Origin: Albidovulum litorale
GTDB taxonomy: Bacteria; Pseudomonadota; Alphaproteobacteria; Rhodobacterales; Rhodobacteraceae
Direction of reading: 5' to 3'
Assembly (NCBI RefSeq): GCF_025751495.1
Contig: NZ_JAOWKZ010000002.1
Location: 372,001-436,000 of the forward strand
Length of the DNA: 64,000 nucleotides
Shown: positions 52,422 through 53,379 of the stretch, in pieces
Layout of the letters: every line of letters begins with the position of its first letter
Numbering within the stretch: the stretch's first letter is position 1
The notes under the pieces: model-generated
Told to the model about the DNA's origin: nothing
Databases searched by the model: none
What the model saw: the letters and a program-made list of their open reading frames with translations, nothing else
Position numbers and translations under genes: made by a program

Positions 52422-52508
52422 CTTGACCGGCAAGGCACGAGGGCTTAAACGCCGCGCGTTCCCGATATGGGACCAAGTCTCCGCGACCTTGTAAAAAACG
52501 GACAGAAC

Positions 52509-53135
52509 ATGACCCGCAAGCTTCTTCCTGGCATCCTTGCCATGGCCGCTATCGTCGTGGCCGCGAACATCCTCGTTCAATATGTGATCGAGGACTGGTT
52601 CCTCACCTGGGGCGCCTTCACCTACCCCTTCACCTTCCTCGTCACCGATATCACCAACCGCATCCACGGACCTGCCGCCGCACGCCGCGTGGTCTATGCC
52701 GGTTTCGTCGTGGGCGTGATCTGTTCGCTGATCGGCACGCAGATCATTGGTGAGTTCGGCCCGCTCGTGACCCTGCGCATCGCGATCGGTTCCGGCCTTG
52801 CCTTCCTTGTCGCACAGCTTCTGGATGTCGCGATCTTCGACCGGATGCGCGAGGGCGCCTGGTGGCGCGCACCGCTGGTTTCGACCCTCGTCGGGTCGGC
52901 TGTCGACACCGCGATCTTCTTCACGATCGCCTTTGCCGCTTCGCTCAGCTTCCTTGAACCGGCCAATGACGTCTCTTGGGCTGGTGAGATGATCCCGCTT
53001 CTGGGCGTGGGCGCAGTGGTGCCGCTCTGGGTGTCGCTGGCCACTGCGGACTGGATTGTGAAACTATCGCTCGCCCTGGTGGCGCTTGTGCCGTTTCGGG
53101 CAATTGTTACAAGATTGACGGCAAACGTTGCGTAA
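52509..53135 (+). CDS. yhhQ: Queuosine precursor transporter (VUT family)
   Basis: A 208-residue inner-membrane protein with about six helices, which takes up queuosine precursors such as preQ0/preQ1. The segments LTWGAFTYPFTFLVTDITNRIHG, AARRVVYAGF and a buried FDRMR are the family's characteristic features. The ATG at 52509 is preferred to an ATG 14 codons earlier. The 87-bp leader shows no convincing preQ1 riboswitch fold. Confidence 0.88.
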   Translation: MTRKLLPGILAMAAIVVAANILVQYVIEDWFLTWGAFTYPFTFLVTDITNRIHGPAAARRVVYAGFVVGVICSLIGTQIIGEFGPLVTLRIAIGSGLAFLVAQLLDVAIFDRMREGAWWRAPLVSTLVGSAVDTAIFFTIAFAASLSFLEPANDVSWAGEMIPLLGVGAVVPLWVSLATADWIVKLSLALVALVPFRAIVTRLTANVA

Positions 53136-53168
53136 AAACAATTGACAGACACAAAATCTGTGGCAGCC

Positions 53169-53177
53169 TGTGGATAA
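53169..53177 (-). promoter_or_regulatory. Consensus DnaA box
   Basis: TGTGGATAA on the top strand is TTATCCACA on the other, the strict E. coli DnaA-box consensus. It is single, placed 12 bp before the 16S-complementary segment. It might tie this transcript to the replication state; a lone box may also occur by chance. Confidence 0.4.
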
Positions 53178-53205
53178 CGGCAACGCAGAGAAAGGAGGTG
53201 ATCCA

Positions 53206-53268
53206 GTGTCTAGAGTGATATTGGAGAGAGGTGTCGGGACAGTCAGGGGGGCGTTGACCCAAGGGTAA
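53206..53268 (+). CDS. Candidate 20-residue leader/small protein
   Basis: GTG start, peptide MSRVILERGVGTVRGALTQG, stop TAA. The ribosome site AGGAGG is 7 nt upstream and lies inside an 18-nt perfect complement to the 16S 3' end. The ORF lies largely in the 5' arms of the long stems, so its translation should prevent them forming. A +1 frame is open from 53214 to 53333 (ending ...WALNPDWALSSFDTLTGPSP), so a frameshifted longer product is a possibility without direct support. No hydrophobic segment; not recognised. Confidence 0.45.
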   Translation: MSRVILERGVGTVRGALTQG

Positions 53269-53344
53269 CAGCTTGGGCTTTGAACCCTGACTGGGCCTTG
53301 TCGAGCTTCGACACCCTAACTGGCCCATCTCCGTAGATCTCGGA

Positions 53345-53379
53345 GGGCCGCTCCAACCCGGAGCGGCCCTTTCCGTTTT
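53345..53379 (+). terminator. Intrinsic terminator of the 53142 transcript
   Basis: GGGCCGCTCC (53345-53354) and GGAGCGGCCC (53360-53369) form a perfect 10-bp stem around AACCC, followed by TTTCCGTTTT. The T-tract is on the top strand, so a rightward transcript ends here. The hairpin could also slow leftward readthrough from fnrL. Confidence 0.85.

Follow-up and report, generated by a model that had tools for sequence, protein, structure and literature searches.

In the window (the whole stretch of DNA that we analyzed, 64,000 nucleotides (nt) from Albidovulum litorale; the parts of the locus and the yhhQ-like gene described below are on its forward strand), we find a locus that reads as a small messenger RNA (mRNA) with a Shine-Dalgarno (SD) sequence complementary to the tail of the 16S ribosomal RNA (rRNA), and which would exist as a masked, two-state message that is opened by the 30S ribosomal subunit. 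We put the probability of this combined statement at roughly 55%, judging from sequence and comparison. Its parts do not share that number: the anatomy we regard as secure, and the switch mechanism is a proposal that we think slightly more apt to fail than to hold. The locus is real, conserved, and functional-looking, and it is a relative of a known but uncharacterized RNA, which we re-read as a small mRNA. Comparison with its relatives shows a micro-ORF, the tail-complementary SD, a covarying helix, and, in the Rhodobacteraceae, a predicted masking of the SD. The preliminary description of this DNA had called it a self-contained structured transcript whose 16S complement is far longer than a normal SD, and the comparisons below support a small, structured transcription unit of this kind, with a conserved ORF.

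The sequence AGAAAGGAGGTGATCCAG at 53189-53206 is an exact complement of the 16S 3’ end over 18 nt, as had been claimed, and we predict that it acts as an SD based on a mismatch scan, an alignment with 16S, and duplex energy. It is the sole place in the 64-kb window with three or fewer mismatches, and shuffled sequences average 0.06 such places (n=100). The 16S gene of a genome from the same family (L334), which matches RF00177, terminates in GGCTGGATCACCTCCTTTCT, so the complement is exact across all 18 nt, and it stops where the 16S gene diverges (CCAGCC in the window, CCAGTG in 16S). In 16S, the bases complementary to AGAAAGGAGGTGATCCAG form the tail that follows helix 45, which is free and single-stranded. 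When duplex energy with the 16S tail was computed, this site was the best of 50,040 sequence windows scored, at -35.4 kcal/mol, with the next best elsewhere at -27.8. The tail pattern was not found in the window's own assembly, so the match to its own 16S is by kinship; two pattern searches were each positive in 2 of 10 genomes, and the rRNA in the negative ones (G000 and seven of the nine others) may be missing, masked, or different. The other two copies of GGAGGTGATCCAG in the genome were considered as possible 16S context and rejected, as the 221 flanking bases read are not 16S.

The pattern AAGGAGGTGATCNNRTG, searched in three sets of genomes, was found in 84 of 385 genomes of the class, 119 of 248 of the family, and 78 of 398 of the phylum, and the reversed pattern was found in none of the 385, 248, or 398. 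Within the phylum set, by row count, 70 of the 135 alphaproteobacteria have the pattern, as do 8 of the 263 genomes from elsewhere in the phylum. At least 120 stretches in named contigs contain GAAAGGAGGTGATCCAGTGTC; among the 80 matches listed, none is named as coming from outside the Alphaproteobacteria, with some labelled just Proteobacteria or Pseudomonadota. A covariance model of the first 77 nt of the RNA has matches in 209 of the 248 family genomes. In three genomes (G048, G490, and G784) the SD-start pattern occurs at two places, L132 being one such second copy.

By itself, the 18-mer is identical to the reverse strand of a 16S gene, so it could be a chance occurrence or a stray minus-strand 16S fragment. 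We reject this reading as wildly improbable, because the block is kept across the class with a continuation that is not that of 16S (CCAGTGTC, not CCAGCCGC), the sequence past CCAG being both non-16S and conserved, and because of the empty reversed-pattern control. Another reading is that the long SD is a sponge for small RNAs, titrating CU-rich regulators that have anti-SD loops. Anti-SD motifs are indeed reported in alphaproteobacterial sRNAs, such as BbsR14 of Bartonella (PMC7717549), but such loops need GGAGG alone, whereas the conserved match extends through the remaining 16S tail, and we consider this explanation very improbable.

For comparisons within the family we started from 61 strict-pattern loci (the window's own and 60 others). 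Five whose peptide does not begin with [VM]xxxx[LV]E were removed (L159, L163, L164, L179, and L213), which left 56. Removal of L165 gave the 55 used for the P4 tests, the letters of the P1 3’ arm, and the enlarged codon counts, and these with 40 further loci make 95. The 40 were hand-picked from listed matches to the 77-nt model that lack the strict pattern, and the 31 rows of that model's alignment were taken from the 56. Since the strict pattern fixes AAGGAGGTGATC and RTG, these are invariant by construction in the strict set. Of the 40 outside it, 35 carry AAAGGAGGTGGTCC, in which a G.U pair replaces an A-U pair against the 16S tail, three or four mispair with the tail (changes in L370, L378, L401, and L402), and one (L373) has an altered upstream base. 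The GTG is at the same position in all 40.

A permissive Rfam scan matched RF01867, the Caulobacter sRNA CC2171, at 53182-53370, over the whole model (1-159 of 159) with 34.4 bits and E-values of 4.9e-06 to 6.9e-06. Because the score is under the gathering cut-off of 75, the window RNA is not filed as a member of RF01867, and a general Rfam scan of the window at the gathering threshold reports one tRNA only. The earlier statement that this is no recognized RNA family is thus correct with respect to the gathering score and incorrect in that the match runs from end to end, and from the sequence alignment we conclude that the window RNA is a divergent relative of RF01867. The two share a 22-nt 5’ block, GAAAGGAGGUGAUCCAGUGUCU, that is identical in the window and the model consensus, and the 3’ terminator hairpin of the model aligns with the window hairpin with two non-standard pairs. 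In contrast, the mid-model helix does not form in the window, where its positions are gaps, and a different fold is supported in the window's group; the masking fold and the 18-codon ORF of the Rhodobacteraceae are absent from the model. RF01867 matches 96 of 385 alphaproteobacterial genomes at E <=0.01, and in 13 of these the score exceeds the gathering cut-off. Of 14 control genomes, two match: Caulobacter vibrioides and the distant Deinobacterium chartae.

The original paper on the Caulobacter sRNA is reportedly that of Landt et al. in 2008. A Mesorhizobium huakuii RNA annotated as RF01867, MH_s33, is reported with an RNA-seq product of 215 nt; a relative is transcribed in Mesorhizobium (PMC5596092). 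RF01867 is listed in Rfam 15 as having gained one covarying pair (PMC11701678). Ribo-seq of Caulobacter is reported to show translation of two formerly predicted ncRNAs (PMC4117421). In the full-text literature that was searched, which includes few subscription papers, we found no description of a 16S complement or an ORF in the RF01867/CC2171 RNA.

The micro-ORF at 53206-53268 (GTG...TAA), identified by ORF reading and by alignment of relatives, has 20 codons plus a stop and would encode the peptide VSRVILERGVGTVRGALTQG. Most relatives have 18 codons; in the window, the codon-19 stop is gone and the ORF reads on to 20. Codon 19 was unselected for a stop in the 56 relatives, and it is TAG in 26, TGA in 16, and TAA in 11 (53 of 56), and never TGG. 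With the 40 further loci, which lean slightly to T at codon 19 because the 77-nt model covers it, a stop is found there in 90 of 95 (TGA 36, TAG 34, TAA 20), and the ORF length is 18 codons in 90 of the 95 Rhodobacteraceae relatives. L383 has an in-frame deletion of 3 nt and retains a stop. When codons 2-12 that differ by a single base are compared, the fraction of synonymous differences is 0.54 in frame versus 0.28 and 0.23 out of frame, among sequence pairs that are non-independent. At the 30 best RF01867 loci of the class, the SD-to-start spacing is the same as in the window: counting 13 nt from the first base of AGGAGGTG, all 30 (L036 included) have an ATG or GTG, which opens a short ORF of 20-26 codons. 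The start at these loci is partly selected, since the model consensus contains GUG; the ORF length is not.

The conserved frame and the selected start and stop are, by comparison, those of a small protein-coding mRNA. Rfam types RF01867 as an sRNA, and our comparison indicates a small mRNA instead, for RF01867 itself by ORF length only. Although curated as non-coding, the RNA is probably a very small message that captures ribosomes and encodes a peptide of ~20 residues, and the CC2171 group together with the window RNA probably make up a class-wide alphaproteobacterial family of stand-alone small mRNAs. In four loci (L096, L107, L141, and L142), the same long SD is followed not by a micro-ORF but by an ORF of 55-57 codons, the start of which resembles a signal peptide. 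In eleven others (L113, L114, L117, L119-L121, L127, L128, L134, L138, and L140), the micro-ORFs have, at or near the end, either a stretch of the EQP type or the element GAGCARCC, and this element of other alphaproteobacteria resembles the GGGCARCCC hairpin of the Rhodobacteraceae.

The locus could also be an ordinary small-protein gene, with the peptide of 18-26 residues as its end product and with expression that is simply set by the long SD and the fold. The fixed length, the alternating stops, and the in-frame synonymous bias in the Rhodobacteraceae agree with this, and many annotated sRNAs of S. meliloti are reported as translated by Ribo-seq (PMC10117765). However, the type of peptide varies with the lineage (VSRKVLERGVGT-type, VSHCH-type, and MSS...EQP-type) while the SD block is common to all of them, and the changes in the helix P4 described below alter codons 13-15, uncorrected, so we find the small-protein gene an unlikely reading. 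We also considered whether SEP1 of Sinorhizobium (23 aa, with the highest TE) could be the same gene, and set it apart by its description, its pI of 4.18 being no obvious fit.

The likely transcript is ~195 nt long, from 53178 to 53372, its ends inferred from the RF01867 match and the end of the last hairpin. Upstream is a likely promoter consisting of TTGACA (53142-53147), 16 nt, and CAGCCT (53164-53169). By hand count, TTG[AC]C is found 49-53 nt upstream of AAGGAGG in 30 of 56 relatives, which suggests that the RNA has its own promoter. A consensus promoter scan passes over 53142-53169 and picks TTGACG-16-AACAAT at 53115-53142 instead. At the 3’ end (53344-53372), there is a terminator-like hairpin, AGGGCCGCTCC/GGAGCGGCCCT, followed by TTT; its pairing at 53344-53370 is perfect and its tail is TTTCCGTTTT. 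Of the GTG ORF, the stems, and the intrinsic terminator that had been claimed, we can confirm the ORF, the inverted repeats, and a perfect hairpin, but a strict terminator scan found none at the locus. In many relatives, the end is a run of four or more T.

The conserved upstream neighbor is a yhhQ-like gene (Pfam Vut_1) at 52467-53135, and the RNA is 3’ of this gene in 51 of 54 relatives, at a distance of 58-171 nt. Among the other 65 loci, yhhQ adjoins one (L179), which is of the same family, and outside the family a crude ORF comparison found no broadly recurring neighbor. The preliminary description advised looking for homologous regions next to fnrL or yhhQ, which was good advice for yhhQ; fnrL is next to none of the 54 relatives. 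It had also suggested a leader-peptide switch, and a short ORF with hairpins and a terminator-like end does look like a leader. Yet fnrL is convergent in the window and the genes downstream of the RNA vary between relatives, and no same-strand downstream gene under its control emerges. Synteny is against an attenuator of fnrL or of a downstream gene, and we regard a leader peptide or attenuator of any neighbor as highly improbable.

The stretch in the window folds more stably than shuffled sequences (z -3.88, with 0 of 200 as low). In P1, the ribosome-binding core GGAGGTG (53194-53200; RNAalifold consensus and window fold) is paired with CATCTCC (53326-53332), a copy of the anti-SD that is predicted to mask the SD. 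The pattern CNNCTCC is found at the position of this 3’ arm in 83 of 95 relatives, and in 81 of these it is C[AG][CT]CTCC, which pairs with GGAGGTG (with some G.U); the NN letters are AT in 32, AC in 30, GC in 18, and GT, CA, and TT in one each. The remaining 12 do not have the pattern there, and some of them have related letters. P2 is a hairpin whose 5’ arm, CCAGTGTC (53203-53210), contains the start codon, and whose 3’ arm is GATATTGG (53217-53224). In the relatives, 94.4% of P2 cells have standard pairs versus 35-42% in slid controls, with little covariation. P3, an inverted repeat seen in the window fold, joins GGTGTCG (53230-53236) to CGACACC (53309-53315). Across the stop codon there is an inner hairpin, CCCAAG...CTTGGG (53258-53277), from the window fold and the relatives' sequences, and many relatives have a GGGCARCCC element.

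P4 joins codons 13-15 to a segment beyond the stop, with its 5’ arm CAGTCAGGG (53240-53248) within the ORF and its 3’ arm CCCTGACTG at 53285-53293, and it is an inverted repeat with compensatory changes in relatives. Its mean pairing score is 5.13 versus 3.17 (sd 0.16) when the arms are dealt among the sequences, with 0 of 2000 deals as high, and it scores at least 5 of 7 in 35 of 55 relatives, which have 24 different 5’ arms. In the 40 further sequences, the score is 5.36 versus 3.89 for dealt arms (maximum 4.51 in 2000). These dealt-arm controls leave shared descent in. In a search of a wide region, P4 beats the 95th percentile of swapped arms in just 15 of 55, and the RNAalifold consensus of the 56 contains P1, P2, and the terminator, with P4 absent. 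Homologous regions without the stems and the long complement would have counted against the preliminary description, but the family comparison did not refute it: the complement and the ORF persist throughout, together with one covarying helix.

In the predicted transcript of the window, the SD core and the start codon have an unpaired probability of ~0. Across the 56 Rhodobacteraceae, the median predicted probability that the SD is unpaired is 0.003 versus 0.268 in shuffled sequences, with 46 masked, and in the 40 further relatives it is 0.011 versus 0.286, with 30 masked. Among 59 loci from other alphaproteobacteria, the corresponding values are 0.362 and 0.257, and six of the 59 are masked. 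Masking as a class-wide trait is thus rejected, since at these 59 the SD is predicted to be at least as accessible as in shuffled sequences. We also dropped decoy pairing as judged by duplex energy alone. The SD-decoy duplex has only a slight advantage over shuffled sequences (mean z -1.32 for the 61 family loci and -0.95 for the 59 others; p <=0.05 in 15/61 and 11/59), and the window's own duplex is indistinguishable from them (z -0.25, p 0.39). Within the complement, an A/G change that is wobble-compatible with 16S is seen at 53201 of the window and in relatives L368-L407. A G at this position pairs with the C that precedes the decoy in 28 of 28 relatives, and an A pairs with a T by the decoy in just 6 of 52, and we infer that A or G here trades pairing strength between 16S and the cis decoy.

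The computed duplex energies in the window are -32.8 kcal/mol for the SD with the 16S tail and -17.1 kcal/mol for the SD with the cis masking strand, and these modeled values fit the earlier suggestion that such a message could hold ribosomes extremely strongly. Very long SDs tend to be poor for initiation, which would favor holding over translating. The RNA might be a 30S sponge that mainly ties up 16S tails, with an ORF that merely lets trapped ribosomes run off. The conserved complement does span the whole 16S tail, more than a normal SD, the SD is predicted to be open outside the Rhodobacteraceae, and the peptide varies between lineages. Against this, there is a single locus per genome and nothing points to an abundance like that of ribosomes, the SD is predicted to be masked in the Rhodobacteraceae, and conservation of the frame exceeds what a run-off ORF needs, so we doubt that the RNA is primarily a sponge.

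In the masked small mRNA that we prefer, the folded RNA would be silent, with the SD and the start codon buried by the anti-SD copy of P1, by P2, and by P4. Given the energies above, a 30S subunit whose 16S tail is free would outpair the masking strand and open the fold, and the micro-ORF would be translated. The translating ribosome would keep P1, P2, and P4 apart, and the fold would stay open. If the 30S subunit opens the fold and translation holds it open, then the RNA would report or consume free 30S capacity, and the readout could be through the peptide, RNA turnover, or the holding of 30S subunits. A bolder version, which we offer as speculative and unlikely, is that the RNA is a sensor of free, correctly finished 30S subunits, in which the anti-SD acts as a lock that only a full-length free 16S tail opens, and translation reports the ribosome supply; the CC2171 group would be the class-wide unlocked form.

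Several known systems are similar in part. In the type I toxin mRNAs, a 3’ segment pairs over a long range with the SD and keeps the message silent. This fold-back masking is like the predicted fold of the window RNA, but those mRNAs encode hydrophobic membrane toxins, whereas the window peptide is charged, and neither it nor those of its relatives are of the small hydrophobic type. The rnTrpL/peTrpL RNA and other dual-function small mRNAs (PMC10117765) are likewise small stand-alone alphaproteobacterial RNAs with a very short translated ORF. However, rnTrpL is described there as leaderless and derived from the trpE attenuator, while the window RNA probably has a promoter of its own, its SD is maximal, and it lacks a target gene downstream. 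In Staphylococcus aureus, extended SD motifs pair over more than six bases (PMC13009471), as in the window RNA, but they are described in that work as a general feature of initiation, whereas the window type is one locus per genome.

If our reading is true, a family that is curated as non-coding sRNA would in fact be tiny mRNAs in many alphaproteobacteria, with the strongest pairing to 16S seen in the window. The family would provide natural variants for questions about long SDs, with A-U or G.U pairs against the 16S tail, a masked or open SD, and the usual stop or none. Such variants bear on initiation, ribosome holding, and the fate of the RNA, in a class where Caulobacter reportedly uses few SDs (75.4% of its genes are without one; PMC4117421). 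If true, the masked message would also be a testable candidate for the direct sensing of free ribosomes.
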